From Sorex araneus (lineage: Eukaryota > Chordata > Mammalia > Eulipotyphla > Soricidae), in NCBI RefSeq assembly GCF_027595985.1, contig NC_073302.1, forward strand, positions 213,600,689 through 213,664,688: DNA of 64,000 nucleotides, in the 5' to 3' direction. Numbering within the stretch: the first letter of the stretch is position 1; each line of letters begins with the position of its first letter. Positions 4,761 through 60,943 of the stretch are shown here, in pieces. Made by a program: the position numbers and the translations under genes. Below the pieces are notes generated by a model that searched no databases, was not told where the DNA came from, and worked only from the letters and a program-made list of their open reading frames with translations.

Positions 4761-5174
4761 TCCCCATTTTCCAGTAGCTTGGCAGCCACACACACAACCT
4801 GCTCCCAGTGCTGTGTAACTCATCAATGGCCCATCAATGGCCAAGATCCAGAGACTATAAAACTGAACTCCTGAAATTGTGTGGCCGCAAATGCCTCCTA
4901 TAGCCTAGTTCTCCCTCTCGGAGGACCTGGCAAGCTACCAAGAGTTTCCTGCCCTCACTGGAGAGCCTGGCAAGCTCCCCATGGTGTATTCATATGCCAA
5001 TAACAGTAACAATGATGGGTCTCATTTTCTGACCCTGAAAGAGCCTCCAATGCAGAAATTTTGGGAAGGAAAAGTAAAGAGAGGCTTCTAAAATCTCAAG
5101 GCTAGGATAAATGGAGACATTCCTGGTGCCTGCTCGAGCAAATTGATGATCAATGGGATGACAGTGATACAGTG
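4761..5174 (+). mobile_element. Long-head SOR-related repeat, copy 1 (~410 bp)
   Basis: The 3' half matches the SOR-B body (GGCAAGCTACCAAGAG, ATGCCAATAACAGTAACAA, GAGCAAATTGATGATCAATG) and ends GATACAGTG. The first ~150 bases (TCCCCATTTTCCAGTAGC...) are not the tRNA head and have no visible A or B box. They include CCAGAGACTATAAAAC. It also carries ~75 bases between the CAGTAACAATG and ATGGAGACAT blocks that ordinary SOR-B lacks. The same structure recurs at 60536-60943, so this is a family rather than a chance fusion. Confidence 0.75.
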
Positions 5175-17074: not shown

Positions 17075-17322
17075 TATTTATTTTAGATTGCACGCTGAGA
17101 AACAGACACTGGATTCCCCGGGATGTCAAAAGAACACTTGGCTGCCCACCTATGAGGTGGTCAGACTTCTTCATCAAGACCCTGAACAAACAGTTTGATG
17201 CTCTTCATGTTCCTGGAGCAAGCGGACACCATTGGGCCACAGTAGCACTTGACAGAGACGAATGGAGATGTTACTGGCACCTGCTTGAGAAAATCAATGA
17301 GCAATGGGATGACATGTGATAA
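17075..17322 (+). mobile_element. RTE-clade LINE, 3' end of the reverse-transcriptase ORF (5'-truncated)
   Basis: A frame ending at 17319 reads WIPRDVKRTLGCPPMRWSDF, then about 25 residues on HWATVALDRDEWRCYW and finally LLEKINEQWDDM before TGA. The order WIPR...GRPPTRWSD...HWATLARDRDEWRRYW is the C-terminal end typical of RTE-clade LINE polyproteins (established family pattern, recalled rather than searched). Here GRPPTRW has become GCPPMRW. Only the last ~80 codons are present, so this is a dead 5'-truncated copy. Its last ~60 bases (ATGGAGATGTTACTGG through GCAATGGGATGACA) correspond to the tail of the SOR-B SINEs in this window, which makes it the best candidate for the LINE lineage that mobilised them. 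There is no poly(A) after the stop. Confidence 0.75.
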
Positions 17323-21083: not shown

Positions 21084-21835
21084 AAAATTTTCATTTTATT
21101 GAATCACCGTGACAAAAGTTACAAAGCTTTCAGGTTTAAGTCTCAGTCATATAATAACCAAACCCCCAACTCTTCAGCAGTGCACATGTTCCCCCACCGA
21201 GAACCCCAATATATCCCCCTCCCACACCCGCTCCCCCACCTGAGTGGCTAATGATCTTCACTGTATTCTCTCCATACTTTCAATATATTCAATATTTCAA
21301 CAGAAAACTCACTATTATTATTTGGAATTTTCCCCCAACAATCAAACCTGCTGAAAAGGCATCATTTGATAATTTGTTTTTCATTGCTGAGAATGAAGAT
21401 TATATGAAGTTTTGGATTTCTGATATTTTAGCTCAGTTCACAGTCTAGATGCATTTCTATAAGAAGCCTCTGAGTAGCAAAATGGGTTAGTAGACCTGTA
21501 GACCTCCCGGATAATAGTCTTTGAGGAGCAGAGGGGCCATGTCGTGTGCAGCTGCTCTGGATCTCATCCAGGCAGAGAGCGTGCCCGTAACACCCCCATC
21601 CCATGATCTCTTGCACACCACGTCACTACAAGCTCGTACCTCTGGGTTGTGAGTTCTAGAAGATGGCGGACACCACATGGGCACCACTGCTGCCACTACC
21701 GCTGCTGCCATCTCCCCCATAGAAAGAAAGTTTTGAGAGAGAAAATCCTTCCCCTTTCCCGGGCGGCATGGGGTTGTGGCTCAGTTCACAGTCTAGATGC
21801 ATTTCTATAAGAAGCCGCTGGGTGCCAAAATGGCT
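21084..21835 (-). mobile_element. ORF-less L1 derivative, copy 1 (L1 3'UTR fused to GC-rich tandem unit)
   Basis: The left part, about 21084-21430, is L1 3'UTR in reverse (TATTGAATCACCGTGACAAA, CAAAGCTTTCAGGTTTAAG, CCTGCTGAAAAGGCATCAT). Instead of ORF2 it continues into a GC-rich unit that starts GCTCAGTTCACAGTCTAGAT at 21431 and begins again with the same bases at 21779, a period of 348. The unit has a YY1-like AGATGGCAGC on the minus strand. Likely imperfect target-site duplications are CTATCACTTATTTTT (21069-21083) and CTGTCACCCTTTTT (21836-21849). The same architecture is at 38184-38956. No ORF1 or ORF2 sequence is present, so it would be non-autonomous. Confidence 0.7.
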
Positions 21836-22320: not shown

Positions 22321-24321
22321 TTAAATTTATTTATTTTTAATTAGAGAATCACCGTGAGGGTACAGTTACAGATTTATACACTTTTGTGCTTATACTTCCC
22401 TCATACAAAGTTTGGAACCCATCCCTTCACCAGTGCCCATTCTCCACCACCCGTAAACCCAGTGTCCCTCCCACTCTCCCCAATCCCATCTCCCCCCCAC
22501 CCCACCCTGCCACTGTGGCAAGGCATTCCCTTCTGTTTTCTCTCTCTAATTAGCTGTTGTGGTTTGCAATAAAGGTGTTGAGTGGCCGCTGTGCTCAGTC
22601 TCTAGCCCTCATTCAGCCCGCAACTCCCTTCCCCCACATGGCCTTCGACTACAATGTAGTTGGTGATCGCTTCTCTGAGTTGACCTTTCCCCGGAACGTG
22701 AGGCCAGCCTCGAAGCCATGGAGTCAACCTCCTGGTACTTATTTCTACAGTTCTTGAGGGTTAGTCTCCCACTCTGTTATTCTATATACCATAGATGAGT
22801 GCAATCTTTCTATGTCTGTCTCTCTCTTTCTGACTCATTTCACTCAGCATGAAACTTTTCATGCCCATCCACTTGACTACAAAATTCTTGACCTCCTTTT
22901 TTCTAACAGCTGCATAGTATTCCATTGTATAGATGTACCAAAGTTTCCTCAACCAGTCATCCGTTCTGGGGCATTCGGGTTTTTTCCAGATTCTGGCTAT
23001 TGTAAACAGTGCTGCGATGAACATACATGTGCAGATGTTGTTTCGATTGTACTTTTTTGCCTCTCTGGGATATATTCCCAGCAGTGGTATTGCTGGGTCA
23101 AATGGGAATTCAATATCTAATTTTTTGAGAGTCGTCCAAATTGTTTTCCAGAAGGGCTGAACCAGTTGGCATTCCCACCAGCAGTGAAGAAGGGTCCCTT
23201 TCTCCCCACATCCTCTCCAACAGCGGTTGCTTTTGTTCTTTTGGATGTGTGCTAGTCTCTGTGGTGTGAGGTGGTATCTCAAAGTTGTTTTGATCTGCAT
23301 CTCTCTGATGATTAGTGATGCAGAGCACTTTTTCATGTGCCTTTTGGCCATTCGTATTTCTTCCTTGGTAAAGTTTCTGTTCATTTCTTCGCCCCATTTT
23401 TTGATGGGGTTGGATGTTTTCTTCTTGTAGAGTTCAACCAGTGCTTTATATACCATTGATATCAACCCCTTATCTGATGGGTATTGTGTAAATATCCTTT
23501 CCCATTCTGTGGATAGTCTTTGGATTCTGGTCACTGTATCTCTTGCGGTGCAGAAGCTTTTTAGTTTAATGTAGTCCCATTTGTTGATCTCTGTTTTTAC
23601 TAGATTGCTTAGTTCCGTGTCACCTTTGAAGATACCTTTATCTTCAATATCGTGGAGGGTTTTGCCGACCTTGTCTTCAATGTACCTTATGGTTTGTGGT
23701 CTAATGTTGAGGTCTTTAATCCATTTTGATCTGACTTTTGTGCATGGTGTCAGGTCAAGGTCTAAACCCATTTTTTTGCATGTGGTTGTCCAGTTATGCC
23801 AGCACCATTTGTTAAAGAGGCTTTCTTTGCTCCACTTCACATCTCTTGCTCCCTTATCAAAGATTAGATGGTCATACATTTGGGGTTGTGTGTAGGGATA
23901 TTCCACCCTGTTCCATTGGTCTACGGCTCTGCCTTTGTTCCAGTACCATGCTGTTTTAATTGTTACTGCTTTGTAGTAAAGTTTGAGGTTGGGGATGGTG
24001 ATGCCTCCCATCATCTTTTTCCCAAGAATTGTTTTAGCTATCCTTGGACGTTTGTTATTCCATATGAATTTTAGGATTGCTTGATCCATTTCTTTGAAGA
24101 ATGTCATGGGTATACTTATAGGGATCGCATTGAATCTGTATAATGCTTTAGGGAGTATTGCCATTTTGACAACATTGATTCTCCCTATCCACGAGCAGGG
24201 TATATGTTTCCATTTCCTCATGTCCTCTTTGATTTCATGGAGTAGCGTTATGTAGTTTTCTTTGTAAAGGTCTTTTACTTCCTTGGTTAAGCTGATTCCG
24301 AGGTACCTGATTTTCTGGGGC
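22321..24321 (-). mobile_element. L1 LINE, 5'-truncated (~2.0 kb)
   Basis: The minus strand holds the last ~510 codons of ORF2 followed by the 3'UTR (reverse complement ends AGAGAATCACCGTGAGGGTA next to an AT tail). The 3'UTR includes a G-rich tract seen on the plus strand as CTCCCCCCCACCCCACCC. The AT-rich flanks TACATATATATA (from 22299) and TACACATATATA (from 24322) may be a target-site duplication but low complexity makes that uncertain. It sits next to an older SOR SINE at 24344. Confidence 0.9.
22782..24319 (-). pseudogene. L1 ORF2 protein, C-terminal third (uninterrupted frame)
   Basis: This is the longest open frame in the window: at least 510 codons with no stop, beginning in [16 protein letters not shown] and running to LIYGI and the stop. 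It covers the region after the reverse-transcriptase core and includes the cysteine-rich motif [18 protein letters not shown] (C-x3-C-x7-H-x4-C) characteristic of L1 ORF2p. Endonuclease and the RT catalytic motifs are missing because the element is 5'-truncated, so it cannot act alone. The open frame and small number of changes suggest a fairly recent insertion. Any methionine start (for example at 24221) is internal and not biologically meaningful. Confidence 0.9.

Positions 24322-25913: not shown

Positions 25914-25961
<48 letters not shown>
25914..25961. repeat. (CA)n microsatellite
   Basis: About 24 uninterrupted CA dinucleotides. Reading frames through it encode VCVC-type repeats that are not proteins. 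Confidence 0.97.

Positions 25962-26992: not shown

Positions 26993-27057
<65 letters not shown>
26944..27057. repeat. Compound (ATGT)n / (CTAT)n microsatellite
   Basis: ATGT repeats at 26944-26984 are followed by an almost pure CTAT run from 26993 to 27057. The tract is probably length-variable. Repeating SIYL frames through it are artefacts. Confidence 0.95.
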
Positions 27058-27366: not shown

Positions 27367-27803
27367 CACTGCACTACTTTTTTTTTAAATTTTTTTATTG
27401 AGTCAGCATGTGGAAAGTTACAAAGTTTTCAGGTTTAAGTCTCAGTTATACAATGCTCGAACACCCATCCCTTCACCAGTGCACATATTCCACAACAGCC
27501 CCCTCTTCCCGCCTGTGTAACTGATAAATTTCACTTTACTCTCACTTTACTTTGATTACATTCAATATTTCAACAAAACTCACTATTATTGTTTGGAGTT
27601 TCTCCCCCCTAAAGTCGGACCTGCTGAAAAGGAAGCATTTGATAATTTGTTTTCCGTTGCTGAGAATAAAGAGATATGAGGTCGAGTGGCTGCACTAGCG
27701 GCCGCATGGTTTTGGACTTCTGTATTTTAGTATTTTAGTAACTAAGTCCAGAGAAAGATCTGCCAGAAATTGCATCACTGCAAACTTGTACTTCTCAGCT
27801 ATT

Positions 27804-30800
27804 TTATATTCCACATATGAGTGCAATATTTCTATGTCGGTCTCTTTCTTTCTGACTCATTTCACTCAACATGATACTTTCCATGTTGGTCCACTTATAT
27901 GCAAATTTCATGACTTCATGTTTTCTGACAGCTACATAGTATTCCATTGTGTATATGTACCAGAGTTTCATTAACCAGTCATCTGTTTTGGGGCACTCTG
28001 TTTTTTTCCAGATTCTCGCTATTTTAACAGTGCTGCAATGAACATAGAAATGCAGATGCCATCTCTACTATACCTTGTTGCTTCTCTGGGATATATTCCC
28101 AGGAGTGGTATTACTGGGTCCAATGGAAGCTCAATTTCTAGTTTTTTGAGAATCATCCATATTGTTTTCCAAAAGGGCTGAACCAATCAGCATTTCCACC
28201 AGCAGTGAAGAAGGGTCCCTTTCTCCCCACATCCAAAACAGCACCGGTTGTTTTTGTTTTTGGGGATGTGGGCCAGTTTCTGTGGTGTGAGATTATATCT
28301 CATTGTTGTTTTGATCTGCATCTCCCTGATGATTAGTGATGAGGAACATTTTCTCATGTGCCTCTCAGCCATTTGGATTTCTTCTTTGGGAAAGTTTCTG
28401 TTCATTTCATCACCCCATTTTTGATCGGGTTGGCAGTTTTCTTCTTGTGGAGTTCAACCAGTGCCTTGTATATCCTTGATATTAACCCTTTATCAGATGG
28501 GTACTGCGTAAATATTCTTTCCCATTCTGTAGATTGTCTTTGTACTTTGGTCACTGTTTCTCTTGAGGTGCAAAAGCTTCTTAGTTTGAGATAGTCCCAT
28601 TTTTTTTATCTCTGTTTTCACTTGCTTGGCCAGTGGAGTGTCAGATTCGAAGATACCAGTGTCTTTAATGTCGTGGAGGGTTTTGCCGACCTTGTCTTCA
28701 ATGTTCCACAGGGATTCTGGTCTGATGTTGAGGTCTCTAATCCATATTGACCTGACTTTTGTACATGGTGATAGGCGGAGGTCTAAGCCCATTTTTTTGC
28801 ATGTAGCTGTCCAGTTTTGCCAGCACAATCTGTTAAACATGCTTTCCTTGCTCCACTTCACATTTCTTGCTCCCTTATCAAAGATTAAATTATCATATAT
28901 TTGCGGGATGTGTCAGAGTATTCAACCCTGTTCCATTGGTCTGCAGCTCTGCCTTTATTCCAGTACCAAGCTGTTTTAATGACTACCGCTTTGTAGTAGA
29001 GTTGGAAGTTGGGGAGGTTGATTCCTCCCATTTTTTTTCCCCATGAATTGCTTTAGCTATTCGTGGGGACTTATCGTTCCATATGAATTTCAAGAGCACT
29101 TGCTCCATTTCTTTGAAGAATGTCAAGGGTATCCCTATAAGGATCACATTGAATTTGTACAATGCTTTGGGGAGAATTGCCATTTTGACAATATTAATTC
29201 TTCCAATCTATGAGCAGGGGATATCTTTCCATGTCCTCGTGTCTGCTTTTATTTCCTGAAGTAGCATTTTGTAGTTTTCATTATACAAATCCTTTACCTC
29301 CTTAGTTAGGATGATTCCGAGGTACTTGATTTTTTTGAGACACAATTGTGAACAGGATTGCTTTTATCATGTTGCTTTCTTCTCTCTCATTATTTGCATA
29401 TAGGAAAGCCATGGACTTTTCTGTATTGATTTTATAGCCTGAAAGTTTACTATACAAGTCTATTGTTTCTAAGAGTTTCTTGGTAGAGGTTTTAGGGTTT
29501 TAGGGTTCTCATATCACGAGCGAATAGTGAGAGCTTGATTTCTTCCTTTCCTACCTGAATGCCCTTAATAGCTTTTTTGCCTAATAGCGATTGCAAGTAT
29601 TTCCAGTACTATATTGAACAGAAGTGGAAAGAGTGTGCATACTTGTCTCATCCCTGTTCTCAGAGGGAAGACTCTCAGTTTTTCCCAATTGAGGATGATG
29701 CTTGCCGTAGGCTTGTGGTAGATGGCTTTGACTATATTGAGGAAGGTCCCGTCTATACCCATTTTGACAAGAATTTTCATCATAAACGGGTGCTGAATCT
29801 TGTCAAATGCTTTCTCTGCATCTATTGATATGATTATATGATTTTTATCTGTTCTTTTATTGATATGATGGATTATGTTGATTGATTTCCAGATGTTAAA
29901 CCATCCTTGCATATCCGGGATGAATCCCACGTGGTCATTGTGTATAACCTTTTTGATGAGTTGTTAAATTCTATTTGCTAGTATTTTGTTGAGAATCTTC
30001 GCATCTATTGTTCATCAGCGATATTGGCCTGTAGTTTTCTTTTTTTTGTGGTGTCTTTGTTTGCTTTTGTTATTATGGAGATATGAGCCTCATTGAAACT
30101 GTTTGGGAGGGTGTCTGTTTCTTCAATTTCCTGGAAATGCTTGAGAAGAACTGGCAATAGGTCCTCTTTAAATCTTTGGAAGAATTTGCTAGTTAATCCG
30201 TCTGGACCTGGGCTTTTGTTTTTGGGAAGGCATTTGATTAACGTTTCAATTTCCTTGATTTTAATAGGACTATTTTGAAACTCCAGGTCTTCTTGGTTCA
30301 GCCTTGGGAGATTATAGGAATCCAGGAATTTATCCATTTTTTCTAGGTTCTCTTGTTTCGTGGCATACAGATTTTCAAAGTAGTCTCTGATGATCTTTTG
30401 AATTTCTTTGGTTTTTGTTGTGATGTTCCCCTTTTCATTGCTGATTCGGCTTATAAGGGTTCTCTCTCTCTCTCTTTCTTTGTGAGTCTTGCTTGTGGTT
30501 TCTCAATCTTGTTTATTTTCTTGAAGAACCTGCTCTTGGTTTCATTGATCTTTTGGATTGTCTTTTGGGTTTCCATGTCGTTATTGTCTGCTCTAAGTTT
30601 TATTATCTATTTCCTTCTGCCTGGTTTGGGCTCCTTTTGTTGGTCATTTTCTCAGGTCTTGAGCTGTGAAGTCAAGTTATTTATGTGGGCCCTTTCTTGC
30701 TTCCTGAGATATGCTTGCAGAGCTATAAATTTTCCCCTTAAAACAGCTTTAGCTGCGTCCCATATGTTCTGGTAACTCGTGTCTTCATTCTCATTTGTTT

Positions 30801-31662: not shown

Positions 31663-32711
31663 TTATAGTAGCATCTTTAGACCTTCTTTTAGGTTTGGTT
31701 TAGAGTCAATGAAGTTCCTGAGTTGTTGTTTATCCGCAAAATAGTGTATCATTCCTCGAGTTTGAATGAGAGTTTGGCCGGATAATGTATTCTTGGTGAA
31801 GTATCATTTCACTGAGTTTTTTCACTATATCCCACCACTGCCTTCAAGCTTGAAGGGTTTCCTCTGATAGGTCTGCTGTGAACCTAAGGGGTGCTCCTTT
31901 GTATGTGATTTCCTTCTTCCACCTTGCAGCTTGCATTAATGTGTCTCTATCTGTTATGTCTATCATCCTAACTATGATATGTCTTGGCGTTTTTCTGTTA
32001 GGGTCTCTTTTAGCTGGCACCTTTCTGGCTCCTTGAATATGGATGTCTGCATTGTCCAGCTCTGGGAACTTTTCAGCAATGATTTTTTTGACTGTGGCTT
32101 TTTCATTGGGGTTGGTTCCCTGTCCTTCTGGTACTCCAATTATTCTAATGTTGTTCCTCTTGAAATCATCCCCTAGGACTCTAATTCTTCCTAGAGCTAT
32201 TTTGAGGTCTCTCCTCATTGATTGTTGTTGCCTGTAGGCTGCCTGCAGTTCATCTTTATGCTCACTGATTCTGTCTTCTGCTGCAGCAATTCTATTGTTG
32301 AGGACACCCACTGAGTTTTTTAATTCATCTACCGAATCCTTTACTTGTGTCATTTCCTTTTGTAGGTTTTTTATTTCTGCTCTCATTTCTTCCCATAATT
32401 TCTCGGTTGTCTATTGTATCGCTTCTGTCAGGTCCTCCTTTAATTTAATGAATACCTTGTCAATCTTTCCATTGTTCATTGAACATCTTGAGGATTTTAT
32501 CTCTAAATTCTTTATCAGAGAGCTCAAGTTTGTAGGAAACATCTATTGAGGCATCTGGACTCCTTTCTTTGTCCTCTCCTTGTGGCGGGGATTTGCATTG
32601 TATTTTCATATTGTTGTGGTGGTATGGAAGAGGGACCTTCAAGTTCACCTCTGGTTGCAAAAAGGATTCTGAATGGGCTTGGTCAGTGGTGATCGATATC
32701 TTCTGTACCAC
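31663..32711 (-). pseudogene. L1 ORF1 (RNA-binding chaperone), disrupted
   Basis: About 350 codons long, the usual L1 ORF1p size. The first half has a coiled-coil-like region (KNLQKEMTQVKDSVDELKNS). The RRM region includes RNNIRIIGVPEGQG, and the C-terminal domain includes IVRMIDITDRDTLMQAAR. Breaks: a frameshift near 32465, an in-frame TAG near 32414, a TGA replacing the usual Arg codon after EETLQA at 31844-31846, and a frameshift near 31755. The end is LKEGLKMLL and TAA. The exact start upstream of 32711 is uncertain. Confidence 0.88.
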
Positions 32712-38183: not shown

Positions 38184-38956
38184 TAAAAAAAATTTATTTT
38201 ATTGAATCACTATGAAAAAAATACAAAGCTTTCAGGTTTAAGTCTCAGTCATATAATGATTAAACCCCCATCCCTTCACCAGTGCACATGTTCCACCACC
38301 AAGAACCCCAATATGCCCCCTCCCCCCCACCTAAATAGCTAATGATCTTCACTTTATTCTCTCTATACTTTGAATACATTCAATATTTCAATAGAAACTC
38401 GCTATTATTGTTTGGAATTTTCCCCCAACAATCAGGCCTGCTGAAAAGGCATCATTTAATAATTTCTTTTCATTGCTGAGGATAAAGATTCCATGAGCTA
38501 TCATAGCCGCGTGGTTTGGGATTTCTGATATTTTAGCTCAGATCACAGTCTAGATGCATTTCTGTAAGAAGCCGCTCTAGGTGCCAAAATAGGTTAGAAG
38601 ACCTCTCGGATCATAGTCTTTAGGAGCAGAAGGTCCATTTCTGGCCCGCAGCTCCGGATATTATCTGTGTGAAGAGTGTGCCGGTAAACCGCCCCCCCCA
38701 CCATCCCATGATCACATATGAGCTCCGTCACTGCAAACTCATACCTCTGAGTTGGGAGTCTCTCGCCATGAAGGTGTTGCCGCCTCCGCCATCTTCCGTG
38801 CAGAAAAACAGGGTAGAGAGGGAAAATCCCTCCCCGGGCGGCACGGGGTTGCAGCACAGTTCACTGTCTAGATGTATTTCTGTAAGAAGATGCTCTAGGT
38901 GCCAAAATGGGTTAGAAGACCTCTCAGATAATAGTTTTTAGGAGCAGAGGGTCCAA
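38184..38956 (-). mobile_element. ORF-less L1 derivative, copy 2
   Basis: It repeats the architecture at 21084-21835: L1 3'UTR in reverse (ATTTTATTGAATCACTATGA, TTTCAGGTTTAAGTCTCAG), then a GC-rich unit starting GCTCAGATCACAGTCTAGAT at 38536 and restarting as GCACAGTTCACTGTCTAGAT at 38854, a period of 318. The minus strand has a good YY1-type site, GAAGATGGCGG (plus coordinates near 38786-38796). Likely target-site duplications are AAACACTTCATTTT (38170-38183) and AAACAGTTCACTTT (38957-38970). No ORF1 or ORF2 sequence lies between. Confidence 0.75.
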
Positions 38957-40181: not shown

Positions 40182-40337
40182 ACATTCTAGTTTTCAAAAT
40201 CTCAACTATCTGGAACCCTCTTGAGTCTACGATGAAGCAAAATGACTTCATCTTCAATGTGTACTATACATTCAGACTGCAGGGTCCAAAAAGTACGCAT
40301 GCATATGTATGCACACTCAAACCCATTGCTTGATTTG
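40182..40337 (+). repeat. Source copy of a local 156-bp duplication
   Basis: ACATTCTAGTTTTCAAAATC through CATTGCTTGATTTG is repeated at 40689-40845 with a single added T. The segment itself is unique sequence. Confidence 0.95.
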
Positions 40338-40416
40338 TGTGTGTGTTTATATGTATATATGCATATATACATATATATATACATATATATGTATGATTTT
40401 GTATTTTCCCGCACGG

Positions 40417-40610
40417 CAGAGCCTGGCAAGCTACCCGTGGGATACTCAATATGCTAAAAACAGTAACAATGATTGTCCTCATTCCCCTGATCCTGAAAGA
40501 GCCCCCAATATGCCATCGAGCTACACTAGCATGTGACAGGGATGAATGGAGATGTTACTGGTGCCTGTTTGAGCGAATCGATAAACAACAAGATGACAGT
40601 GATACAGTGA
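40417..40610 (+). mobile_element. SOR-B-related fragment with extended LINE-like tail
   Basis: It lacks the tRNA head and starts within the body at GGCAGAGCCTGGCAAGCTAC. It then carries the CCTGATCCTGAAAGAGCC block shared with the long-head repeats, followed by GCTACACTAGCATGTGACAG and GGATGAATGGAGATGTTACT. That last part matches the RTE LINE fragment further upstream (ALDRDEWRCYW region) than ordinary SOR-B does. It ends GATACAGTG. Confidence 0.75.
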
Positions 40611-40690
40611 ATGACACTTAAGCCTCTGAATGATGGTGGTAAATCTAATTGGTCAGTTTCTTTACAGTTCTCAATATTGATATTAAATAC

Positions 40691-40875
40691 ATTCTAGTTT
40701 TCAAAATCTCAACTATCTGGAACCCTCTTGAGTCTACGATGAAGCAAAATGACTTCATCTTCAATGTGTACTATACATTCAGACTGCAGGGTCCAAAAAG
40801 TACGCATGCATATGTATGCACACTCAAACCCATTTGCTTGATTTGATCCTCTTTCAGGATCAGGGGAATGAGGAT
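40691..40875 (+). other. 185-bp locally templated insertion with 18-bp flanking duplication
   Basis: The insertion is made of a near-identical copy of 40182-40337 (here 40689-40845), three bases ATC, then an exact inverted copy of 40476-40501 (here 40849-40874). AATATTGATATTAAATAC flanks it at 40673-40690 and 40876-40893. No poly(A) is present. The near-identity of source and copy indicates a recent event. Confidence 0.9.
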
Positions 40876-40985
40876 AATATTGATATTAAATACTGTTCAA
40901 ACTCTGATGAACTAAAGCTGCAGTAGAATATCACATTGCTCGATAATATAATTAATTGCTATTGCCAGCTAATGGCCAGGACTTT

Positions 40986-42591: not shown

Positions 42592-42690
42592 AAAAATGGC
42601 TCACAGACTGTGATGTTCATATGTTACTCCTGGATCTGTGCTCAGGGATCACTCCCAGGGTGATCATAGGAACTACTTAATATTATACTG
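42592..42690 (-). mobile_element. Older SOR-A SINE, 3' part
   Basis: GTTACTCCTGGATCTGTGCT and GGATCACTCCCAGGGTGATC are the tail half of a reversed SOR-A. A possible remaining head part (GGAACCATATGGAGTACTGA, GTGCAAGGCAGACAG) lies at about 42947-43003, beyond a younger SINE, suggesting nesting. Confidence 0.65.
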
Positions 42691-42731
42691 AGATTATTAT
42701 TTATTATTAATTATTAAAATGAGTTATTCTT

Positions 42732-42903
42732 TTTTTTCTTTTTGGGTCATACCCAGCCATGCACAGCGGTTACTACTGGTTTATGCACTCAGGAAATACT
42801 TCTGGCAGTGCTCAGTGGACCATATGGGATGCTGGGAATCAAACCCAGGTCAGCTGCATGCAAGACAAATGCCCTATCCACTGTGATATCACTCCAGTCC
42901 CAA
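42732..42903 (-). mobile_element. SOR-A SINE with target-site duplication
   Basis: CTTTTTGGGTCATACCCAGC, GGACCATATGGGATGCTGGG and ATCACTCCAGTCCC, reversed. AGTTATTCTT flanks it at about 42722-42731 and 42911-42920. Confidence 0.92.
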
Positions 42904-43293
42904 AAGAATAAGTTATTCTTATTTAATACTTTAATACATGCTAAAGGAACCATATGGAGTACTGAGGATAGAACTTGTGTCGACCAAGTGCAAGGCAGAC
43001 AGTTGTTATAAGCTTTAAGATAGTAGCTCTACATTAGACTACGTCATATTAATGTCCACAGTGAAATATGTAAGAGAAAATCTGAGTACTCCTAAGTAAT
43101 TATGCAACTTTTTTTTTGTTTTGGTATCTATCAAATGGAAACTGGATTTCTCTATATTTCCCTTCTTTGATTATGATCTTCTCAATAACCTGCCTTATGT
43201 CTCTAGCCCTAAATTGACACACTAAAGGGTATAACAATCATTTAATGGTTTGTCTTATAAATGAATTAAGAAAACAACATTAAAAAAATACTA

Positions 43294-55709: not shown

Positions 55710-56860
55710 ACGCAGAGAGGAAATACAAGAGGTGCCTCCCCCCCACCCTGTAGGATAACATAGCCTCAAGTAGTTTAGGTTTATTGGCTTACTCCCATCA
55801 CAGTGCTCCCATTCCTCTTTGTTTATTTGTAGCTTCTTTCTTACTGTTCTGTTGACTTGTAAATACTGTTTTTCTCTTCTCCTTGAGTCCTTTGCATAGT
55901 TTATTCAGAGCCATGTCCTTTTGTATGGACACAGGAAGACTTAGCAAATGCTATGCTTTTATAACCTGGGAGTCATTTGACTCTACATGATATTTTCCTC
56001 CTGGGCATCAGTTCTCTCCACCTAAGCCTCAGCTGCCCTTACTTCCTAGCACCCCCAAAGGCAGGGTCGTGACGAGAGACGAGACGGACCCAGGGCAAGC
56101 GGTGAGTTGTGTGCTACCTGGCATCGAGATGGGCCTGGCCAAAGTGCCTAATGCTTAACTATAAGTTAAGAGCTTGATCATGGACAAATGTTGTCATGAT
56201 CCAAACAGTGATAACTAGATTTGGACCCTGCTAAGGTGAGGAATGATTAATCTAGCCTGAGTGCTGTGGTCTGAGTCTGTGGCAAGATGTTGCCAAGAGA
56301 GCTGCCTTAAAAGCCTCAATGTATCTCTTGCTATGTCCATGCAAAAATAACTAGCATTAAGATGTTTGTTTTTTTTTAATATTTTATTGAGTCACCATGT
56401 GGAAAGTTACAAAGTTTTCAGGTTTAAATCTCAGTTATACAATGCTCGAATACCCATCCCTTCACCAGTGCTCATATTCCACCACCAAGAATCCCAGTAT
56501 AGCTCCACCCAGCCCCCTCACACCCGTAACCCCCCCACGCCCCTAGCCCCCCCACCCTAAGCCCCCTCCCTGCCTGTGTAACTAATAAATTTCACTTTAT
56601 TTTCACTTTGATTGCATACAATATTTCAACAAAACTCACTGTTATTGTTTGGAGAGTCTCTCCCCTAAAGTCAGACCTGCTGAAAAGGAAGCATTAGATA
56701 ATTTGTTTTCCATTGCTGAGGATGAAGAGGTATGAGGTCGAGTGACCACACTTAGCGGCCTCTCGGTTTTGGGTTTCTGTAATTTAGTATTTTAGTAACT
56801 AAGTCCAGAGAGATATCTTCCAGAAGTTGCATCGTTGCCAACTTGTACTTCTCAGTTACA

Positions 56861-58650
56861 TTATATTCCACATATCAGTGCAATCTTTCTATGTCTGTCT
56901 CTTTCTTTCTGACTCATTTCACTCAACATGATACTTTCCATGTTGATCCATTTATATGCAAATTTCATGACTTCATGTTTTCTGACAGCTACATAGTGTA
57001 GATGTACCAGAGTTTCTTTAACCAGTCATCTGTTTTGGGGCACTCTGGTTTTTTCCAGATTCTGGCTATTGTAAACAGTGCTGCAATGAACATAGAAATA
57101 CATATGCCATCTCTACTATACCGTTTTGCCTCTCCCGGATATATTCCCAGGAGTGGTATTGCTGGGTCAAATGGAAGCTCAATTTCTAATTTTTTGAGAA
57201 TCGTCCATATTGTTTTCCAAAAGGGCTGAACCAGTCGGCATTCCCACGAGCAGTGAAGAAGAGTCCCTTTCTCCCCGCATCCACACCAACACCGGTTGCT
57301 TTTGTTTTTTGGGATGTGGGCCAGTCTCTGGGGTGTGAGATGATATCTCATGGTTGTTTTGATCTGCATTTCCCTGATGATTAGTGATGTGGAACATTTT
57401 CTCATGTGCCTCTGAGCCATTCGGATTTCTTCTTTAGGAAAGCTTCTGTTCATTTCATCACCCCATTTTTTGATGGGGTTGGCAGTTTTCTTCTTGTGGA
57501 GTTCAACCAGTGCATTGTATATCCTTGTTATCAACCCTTTATCGGATGGGTACTGCATAAATATCCTTTCCCATTCTGTAGATTGTCTTTGTACTTTGGT
57601 CACTGTTTCTCTTGAGGTGCAGAAGCTTCTTAGTTTGAGATAGTCCCATTCATTTATCATGTTTTCACTTGCTTGGCCAGTGGTATGTCAGCTTTGAAGA
57701 TACCTTTGGCTTCAATGTTGTGGAGGGTTTTGCCGACCTTGCCTTCAATGTACCTTAGGGATTCTGGTCTGATGTTGAGGTCCTTAATCCATTTTGATCT
57801 GACTTTTGTACATGGTGATAGGTGGAGGTCTAAGCCCATTCTTTGCATGTAGCTGTCCAGTTTTGCCAGCACAATTTGTTAAACATGCTTTCTTTGCTCC
57901 ACTTCGCCTTTTTTGCTCCCTTATCAAAGATTAGATGGTCATATATTTGGGGGGATGTGTCAGAGTATTCAACCCTGTTCCATTGGTCTGAGGCTCTGCC
58001 TTTGTTCCAGTACCAAGCTGTTTTAATGACTACTGCTTTGTAGTAGAGTTGGAAGTTGGGGAGGTTGATTCCTCCCATTTTCTTTTTCCCAAGAATTCCT
58101 TTAGCTATTCGTGGGGTCTTATTGTTCCATATGAATTTCAGGAGTGTTTGCTCCATTTATTTGAAGAATGACAAGGGTATCCCTATAGAGATCGCATTGA
58201 ATTTGTACAATGCTTTGGGGAGAATTGCCATTTTGACAATATTAATTCTTCCAATCCATGAGCAGGGGATATTTTTCCATTTCCTCATGTCTTCTTTTAT
58301 TTCCTGAAGTAGCGTTTTGTAGTTTTCATTATACAAGTCCTTTACCTCCTTAGTTAAGCTGATTCCGAGGTATTTGATTTTTTGAGGCACAATTGTGAAC
58401 GGGATAGCTTTTATCATGTCGCTTTCTTCTCTCTCACTATTTGCATATAAGAAAGCCATGGACTTTTGGGTATTGATTTTATAGCCTGCAACTTTACTAT
58501 ACGAGTCTATTGTTTCTAGGAGTTTCTTGGTAGACGTTTTAGGGTTTTCTAAGTATAATATCATATCAACAGCGAATAGTGAGAGCTTGATTTCTTCCTT
58601 TCCTACCTGAATGCCCTTAATATCTTTTTCTTGCCTAATCGCTATTGCAA

Positions 58651-58651
<1 letters not shown>
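56861..58651 (-). pseudogene. L1 ORF2, RT end to C-terminus, disrupted
   Basis: Starting at [20 protein letters not shown], it includes the catalytic box region reading [14 protein letters not shown], where the first Asp of FADD is Val. An in-frame TAA sits at FFK*MEQ (near 58157), with frameshifts near 57850 and 57660. The CCHC box is intact as [18 protein letters not shown], and a deletion near 56996 disturbs the C-terminus. Confidence 0.9.
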
Positions 58652-59248
<597 letters not shown>

Positions 59249-60535: not shown

Positions 60536-60943
60536 TCCCCATTTTCCAGTAGCTAGGCAGTCACAACCGCAAACTGCCCCTGGCGCCATGTAATCAATCC
60601 CATCAAGGGCCAACATCCAGAGACTATAAAACCAAGCTCCCAGAAGCACGAAGCCGCACAACATCTTATAGCCTAGTTCTCCTTCTCAGAGAACCTGGCA
60701 AGCTTCTGAGAATTTCCTGCCTGCACAGGAGAGCCTGGCAAGCTCCCCATGGTGTATTCATATGCCAAATACAGTAACAATGATAGGTCTCATCCCCTGA
60801 ACCCTGAAAGAGCCACTAGTGCGGCAGTCTTGGGAAGGATGAGTAAAGAGAGGCTGCTAAAATCTCAGGGCTAGGACGAATGGAGACATTACTGGGCCCG
60901 TTCGAGCAAATCGACGATCAATGTCTTGACAGTGGCAGTGATA
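60536..60943 (+). mobile_element. Long-head SOR-related repeat, copy 2
   Basis: It starts TCCCCATTTTCCAGTAGCTA like copy 1 at 4761, keeps CCAGAGACTATAAAACC, ATAGCCTAGTTCTCCTTCTC, the AACCCTGAAAGAGCC and AGTAAAGAGAGGCTGCTAAA blocks, and ends TTGACAGTGGCAGTGATA. The tail segment GGGCTAGGACGAATGGAGAC is close to the RTE LINE fragment at 17.26 kb. Length (~410) and internal order agree with copy 1 throughout. Confidence 0.78.

Follow-up and report, generated by a model that had tools for sequence, protein, structure and literature searches.

A 185-bp insertion of direct and inverted local pieces between 18-bp target duplicates: a possible scar of two-ended break repair in mammalian DNA

Introduction

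A 64-kb stretch of mammalian, shrew-like DNA (hereafter the window) contains a 185-bp insertion that is flanked by an 18-bp target duplication and is composed of a direct copy of one neighbouring segment, three filler nucleotides and an inverted copy of a second. The presence of this insert between its duplicates is confirmed. For its origin the balance tips, by a small amount, towards chimeric repair-mediated duplication (RD), in which a staggered break would have been repaired by microhomology-primed synthesis from both of its ends. Two-ended synthesis of this kind is favoured over serial switching at a replication fork, the two mechanisms being only partly separable from sequence. The insertion is an ordinary mutation scar that is unusually readable, and it offers a worked example of two-ended break repair versus serial template switching because a template or a foldback can account for almost all of the inserted bases.

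Architecture of the Insertion

The target sequence AATATTGATATTAAATAC occurs exactly twice in the window, starting at 40673 and at 40876, and has no occurrence on the opposite strand. The 185 bp between the copies (40691-40875) comprise, in order, a 155-bp direct copy, a 3-nt filler, a 26-bp exact inverted copy and a single unmatched T. The left copy is preceded by the flank CAGTTCTC and the right copy is followed by TGTTCAAA. The components are as follows.

40673-40690, plus strand: left target copy, 18 bp
40691-40845, plus strand: insert block 1, a direct copy of donor 1 with one extra T
40846-40848, plus strand: filler ATC, 3 nt
40849-40874, minus strand: insert block 2, an exact inverted copy of donor 2
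40875, plus strand: T unmatched by donor 2, from which C was expected
40876-40893, plus strand: right target copy, the first three bases of which (AAT) also extend donor 2 past the mismatch

Blocks, duplication, shared bases and hairpin are directly visible in the sequence. The original prediction, which mentioned neither the position of donor 2 inside a SINE nor the foldback-like character of the filler, proved accurate on the remaining points: it had described an insert of this length between 18-bp duplicates, a copy of 156/157 bp derived from upstream (40182-40337, which aligns to 40689-40845), an exact inverted copy of 40476-40501, the sharing of AC at the first junction (the last two target bases are also 40182-40183) and the absence of poly(A). 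Neither end of the insert carries a poly(A)/T tract, since it begins ATTCTAG and terminates GAGGAT.

Chance is excluded as a source of these matches because block 1 has an E-value of 4e-79 in a self-BLAST of the window (dust filter on, E up to 1e-3) and because blocks 1 and 2 are the sole matches of at least 95% over at least 30 bp among the 64 self-matches listed, namely those of at least 25 bp and at least 85%. When the AAT beyond the mismatch is included, the inverted arms extend over 30 nt, of which 29 match (97%). The two copies of the block 1 sequence lie 507 bp apart, and the donors are situated approximately 0.2-0.5 kb from the insertion. Simple tandem duplication by slippage was rejected on account of this separation and of the inverted piece attached to the copy. 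Ordinary retrotransposition, including insertion of a SINE, was likewise rejected, as a tail is absent and the insert is not an element; the sole SINE-model match reaching into it (40823-40881) is centred on block 2.

Only two bases of the insert, the T added within block 1 and the one at position 40875, are left without a template or foldback to account for them. An assembly or read artefact is a very improbable explanation. The insert combines an 18-bp duplication without mismatch, microhomology at its junctions, a filler resembling a foldback and an indel that distinguishes copy from source, and assemblers are not known to generate such features.

Source of Block 1 and the Uncopied Stretch

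Block 1 was derived from a segment upstream of the target that is followed, in the stretch left uncopied between the two donors, by features of possible relevance to where copying ended.

40182-40183, plus strand: AC, the 2-bp microhomology of donor 1 to the 3' end of the left target copy
40184-40337, plus strand: donor 1, 154 bp, with no match to the SINE model used and single-copy in the window besides its copy
40338-40348, plus strand: TG/T run at which the copying of donor 1 stopped
40349-40394, no strand assigned: palindromic, AT-rich hairpin located between the two donors, in sequence that was left uncopied

Alignment of 40182-40337 (156 bp) with 40689-40845 (157 bp) reveals no substitutions and one extra T in the copy. 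As AC also ends the target, the copied part proper amounts to 154 source bases and 155 insert bases. Apart from its source, block 1 has no further match in the window, which at this scale speaks against origin from a dispersed repeat family. The possibility that the upstream copy is the derived one was rejected. The insert copy is regarded as derived on two grounds: the duplication flanks the insert, no repeat longer than 4 bp being shared by the near flanks of the source; and donor 2 occupies the middle part of a SINE (40408-40609) whose alignment continues to either side of the donor.

The copying of donor 1 halted at the TG run, 11 nt before the hairpin. Folded as RNA, the hairpin region (40330-40400) gives -14.9 kcal/mol. 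The minus strand of the whole donor stretch, 318 nt folded as DNA, folds better than 100 of 100 shuffles (z -3.15), with a shorter AT hairpin that is present in the minimum-energy structure and absent from the centroid.

Source of Block 2

Block 2 matches, in inverted orientation, a segment that lies inside a SINE.

40408-40609, plus strand: SINE copy holding donor 2, recognised with a model ('sineB') built in this analysis
40476-40501, plus strand: donor 2, 26 bp, copied inverted and followed by CCCCC, where copying halted

The model was built from one SINE matching a published primer and has 36 matches in the window, fragments counted. Besides the insert, four copies in the window match it across the middle region. 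The insert agrees with the local copy at two bases, within TCCTCATT and GATCCTG, where two other well-aligned copies have a different sequence (GTCTCAT, GACCCTG or GAACCCTG); the fourth middle-region copy is divergent at these two diagnostic bases. The sharing of these bases, in which the insert is unlike the two well-aligned others, favours a local donor, and the SINE copy at 40408-40609 is on sequence comparison the likely donor of block 2, but an unproven one, as donor 2 is within a SINE and other copies could have supplied the block.

The SINEs of the window also vary in form. A longer form with an extra middle segment is found at 40408-40609, 4952-5174, 60720-60940 and 17137-17321, and five other copies compared are without the segment. 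The difference of these four long-form copies in the middle suggests that subfamilies may be present.

Filler at the Inner Junction

At the inner junction, where block 1 meets block 2, the two sources share 0 bp of microhomology. The filler that occupies this position lies across a putative snap-back footprint.

40844-40862, plus strand: 7-bp perfect inverted repeat TGATCCT/AGGATCA with a 5-nt loop, spanning the filler

The arms are TGATCCT (40844-40850), of which TG is the end of block 1 and CT the start of block 2, and AGGATCA (40856-40862). Among the 64 possible 3-nt fillers, ATC is the only one to produce a 7-bp match, direct or inverted, within 30 nt, and among 20,000 random junctions and fillers drawn from the window an inverted 7-mer match arose in 91 and a match of any kind in 230, in a test framed after the sequence had been seen. 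A short templated filler arising from a foldback of a few bases is a mark of polymerase theta, and a foldback-like filler of this type, with its 7-bp inverted repeat, is seen here.

Microhomology at the Target Ends

The outer junctions share 2 bp (AC) on the left and 3 bp (AAT, after one mismatch) on the right. If the insert is read as a series of successive switches, the microhomologies are thus 2 bp, 0 bp with filler, and 3 bp after one mismatch. The left AC does not exceed chance expectation, since 0.247 of 3,000 random sites score equally or better. On the right, the resemblance extends further upstream of donor 2.

40467-40474, plus strand: CAATGATT, presumed priming site, similar to the CAATATT terminus (3') of the right overhang apart from one bulged base

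Immediately ahead of donor 2, ...TAACAATGATT, which ends at 40474 and is followed by an unmatched G at 40475, is similar to the right target end (...TATCAATATT-3'). The end-anchored score of this homology, computed with the one unmatched base skipped, is 6.5 and is attained by 0.002 of 3,000 random window sites. Within approximately 1 kb, 7 of 3,464 combinations of site and strand, one of them the donor site, score at least as well, and for this reason, and because of the skipped base, the right-end homology is suggestive only.

Proposed Mechanism

From these features we infer a staggered break and an order of events, any assignment of enzymes being tentative. A staggered double-strand break would have produced 18-nt 3' overhangs, both of which were retained. 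The left overhang (...TAAATAC-3') would have annealed by AC at 40182-40183 and been extended to 40337, halting at the TG run 11 nt before the hairpin; the right overhang (...TATCAATATT-3') would have annealed at 40467-40474, through the ATT at its terminus together with a bulged CAAT, and been extended to 40501, halting at the run of five C residues. The right nascent end (...GAAAGAG-3') would have snapped back through AG on CT and added GATCA, following which its terminal CA could pair with TG of the left nascent strand, with fill-in and ligation sealing the gap. The 18-bp duplication would represent the fill-in of both overhangs. The order of events is not recorded in the sequence, as the junctions read alike in either direction.

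The contribution of polymerase theta may have been confined to the filler, and theta could be considered as the maker of the filler or of the 26-bp block. Block 1, at 155 bp, exceeds the size typical of theta templated insertions, since those credited to theta are typically no longer than ~30 nt, and theta is dispensable for templated insertions at Cas9 breaks (earlier findings, both cited by Yu et al., 2024, PMC11724301). According to a study of mouse ES cells (PMC5730883), 3' overhangs from paired nicks are preferentially repaired by classical end joining, not theta, and the 3'-overhang breaks so produced yield mainly tandem duplications. The original prediction had offered, without separating them, serial template switching (MMBIR/FoSTeS) or theta-type repair of a staggered break. 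The former survives as a live rival. Of the latter the staggered break is retained, and it is theta in particular that these two papers disfavour, as maker of a 155-bp block or as main joiner of paired-nick 3' overhangs.

Serial switching would involve one nascent strand that exits after TAAATAC, copies donor 1 and then donor 2 backwards, and returns 18 bp upstream of its exit, the upstream return creating the duplication. It is in our estimation rather unlikely. It accounts for the same blocks and for the 2- and 3-bp outer microhomologies, and the stop of donor 1 at 11 nt before the hairpin and that of donor 2 at C5 are as expected for stalling. Among complex insertions in yeast, an inverted pair of pieces from the same locus was reported in 15/23 from rad27, 14/18 from rtt105 and 3/3 from rfa1-t33 strains, but in just 9/144 from Dna2-deficient strains (PMC11724301). 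The 0-bp inner junction with its 3-nt filler is at odds with the median of 6 bp given for yeast inversion junctions in the same source, and an exact return to a point 18 bp upstream is an extra coincidence that a staggered break avoids.

The yeast data also bear on a scheme, proposed in the same work, in which the inversion was preformed in a single-stranded replication intermediate (a flap or hairpin), displaced, and then inserted into a staggered break through end joining. With 2 and 3 bp, the outer junctions are within the 0-4 bp (median 2) of microhomology given for break ends, and the non-overlapping pieces fit the RPA-type mutants (PMC11724301); moreover, a hairpin lies between the donors, in a strand whose fold surpasses all of its shuffles, as given above. 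Against this, the longest inverted match between 40320-40350 and 40460-40530 is the 5-bp CATTG, which is off the junction (the reported median being 6 bp), and the uncopied gap of 138 bp compares with 30-119 bp between junctions in rtt105 mutants (PMC11724301). Prior inversion is judged quite improbable.

Under two-ended repair with a separate priming event at either end, the two blocks can be read as copied from the minus strand of one stretch of ~320 nt. To the left of the break, resection in the 5'-to-3' direction would leave the broken chromatid with its plus strand exposed. On this reading the resected broken molecule was probably not the template, and the sister or homologue, single-stranded replication DNA and antisense RNA are the probable alternatives. 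This argument for a separate template fails if one strand made the whole insert by switching.

A more general idea, which we advance as unlikely but by no means negligible, is that a direct-plus-inverted two-donor insertion might be the fingerprint of two ends copying one exposed strand simultaneously. Applied to this locus, and with equal reserve, the ~320-nt hairpin-bearing minus strand might have been a single-stranded replication gap in the sister or an antisense RNA, and not resected ends. A narrow literature query matched no paper on this same-strand template idea, which is not proof of absence. If true and general, the orientation of two-donor insertions would report the template nucleic acid in germ-line break repair.

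The Case for L1-Type Priming

An antisense RNA template is central to a further rival, tailless L1-type twin or dual priming, in which both 3' overhangs left by the L1 endonuclease prime reverse transcription on one antisense RNA of the locus. L1 target duplications range from ~7 to 20 bp, and the 18-bp duplication is inside this range. Their peak, at 14-16 bp (PMC2912911), is also near this length. A direct and an inverted piece together constitute the layout of twin priming. Approximately 70% of 5'-inverted L1 insertions are reported to carry 2-5 bp of microhomology at the 5' junction, as here, and microhomology is absent from the inner junction of 39 poly(T) loci ascribed to twin or dual priming (PMC2837659), again as here. 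Tailless retrocopies with target duplications are known (PMC2912911), and the window itself encodes reverse-transcriptase and L1 ORF1 domains, in short frames.

The endonuclease motif is equivocal. In plus orientation the left target edge TC/AATA scores 4/6 against TT/AAAA, which speaks for an L1 role: 8.6% of window positions reach or exceed this score, and the 8 SINE copies in which a target duplication could be identified average a similar 3.75. This SINE control is weak, an exact target duplication of at least 8 bp (median 11.5 bp) having been found in 8 of 27 near-full-length SINE copies. The classical order of primers would place the first nick at CA/GTAT, which scores 1/6, whereas the orientation with the better motif (4/6) leaves the two priming sites in the wrong order on the RNA. 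An endonuclease site compatible with the classical order was thus not found, nor was a poly(A) tail. Tails were present at 0 of 39 inspected human proximal duplications versus 17 of 29 interchromosomal ones (PMC2671141), and donors situated next door therefore point to repair. L1-type priming is on this evidence distinctly unlikely, though still a live rival. The original prediction of a local templated insertion, as opposed to ordinary retrotransposition, is supported by the lack of poly(A), the near donors, the outer sharing of 2-3 bp and the snap-back-like filler.

Age of the Insertion

Source and insert differ at one or two positions over ~180 bp, which corresponds to ~0.01 to 9 My under two rates, 2.2e-9 (used in PMC2671141) and 5e-9 (assumed) per site per year, with the indel counted as a substitution. 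The one-base difference originally proposed holds for block 1, and position 40875, with its unmatched T, may represent another. That the insertion is 'very young or possibly polymorphic', as had also been proposed, is not established, given that one or two differences over this length allow anything from about ten thousand to nine million years.

Sequence Context

The window is mammalian and shrew-like, the shrew label being drawn from SINE primers. Two published shrew SINE primers (PMC8608897) each have seven sites in the window with at most 2 mismatches, and 100 shuffles give 0.

Several other repeats were observed. LINE-1-like remains are found on the minus strand, with a PF00078 reverse-transcriptase domain at 29568-29963 and again, below cut-off, at 58160-58744, and an L1 ORF1 domain (PF02994) at 31847-32410, also on the minus strand; 27497-29597 and 56560-58651 are 90.6% identical. 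An open stretch of 511 residues (22782-24317, minus strand) has no Pfam match and has wording in common with the frame at 56989-57687; we presume it to be the end of an L1 ORF2. Two diverged copies of a non-SINE repeat (21305-21833 and 38395-38955) are 77-91% identical in pieces, and inside each a direct repeat recurs at a distance of 348 or 318 bp. At 42596-43000 (minus strand), a SINE is apparently split by a SINE of the same family (42733-42895), probably through nested insertion. Perfect short tandem repeats include (TCTA) with 16.2 copies at 26993-27057 and (AC) with 24 copies at 25914-25961.

Comparison With Known Systems

Several described classes of insertion resemble this locus in part. 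The twin- and dual-primed L1 insertions (PMC2837659, PMC2912911) are similar in having direct and inverted pieces between duplications and short outer microhomology; they differ in that the present insert has no L1 and no tail, takes donor 1 from local non-element sequence, and presents a conflict between motif and primer order. Class 2 TSIPs (Onozawa and Aplan, 2016, PMC5110952) are alike in lacking poly(A) and in showing microhomology and filler, but they have no target duplication and have distant donors, whereas an 18-bp duplication and donors within 0.5 kb are found here. Assignment to this class was rejected, as the duplication that is present, together with the near donors, contradicts the class features. 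The inverted two-piece insertions of yeast (Yu et al., 2024, PMC11724301) likewise contain pieces of one locus in opposite orientation, with ~2-3 bp of microhomology at the break ends; they differ in their distant donor locus and their 6-bp median inversion junction, in place of which an adjacent donor and a filler are seen here.

The closest likeness is to the RDs of vertebrates. In the human genome, the donor was located within 5 kb in 824 of 1,136 duplicons, and proximal copies had a mean length of 162 bp; 20 acceptors were chimeric, in 5 of which the second donor lay within 3.5 kb of the first (Pace et al., 2009, PMC2671141). On inspection of 39 proximal human RDs, a target duplication was recorded in 6, the combination 'MH+TSD+Filler' in 2 and poly(A)/T in 0, and RDs have also been reported from mouse, rat, dog, cow, chicken and zebrafish, in counts of 6 to 266 (same source). 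The present insert contains copied genomic DNA of at least 50 bp (the 155-bp block 1), has no poly(A)/T tract and shows microhomology, filler and target duplication at its breakpoints. With regard to a single donor, and within the window, donor 1 is found at one other place within 5 kb, and donor 2 is in a SINE. Two differences may be noted: the second piece is here inverted and lies in a SINE, with a foldback-like filler beside it, which may set the locus apart from the described RDs, and the acceptor is outside any recognised repeat, a transposable-element acceptor being a requirement of detection in that work and not part of the definition. In having donors within 5 kb, a copy of ~150 bp, no poly(A) and two nearby donors, this locus is like the proximal chimeric RDs, as it is like proximal RDs in its microhomology, filler and target duplication, and a chimeric two-donor repair scar is a kind already catalogued in vertebrates (PMC2671141).
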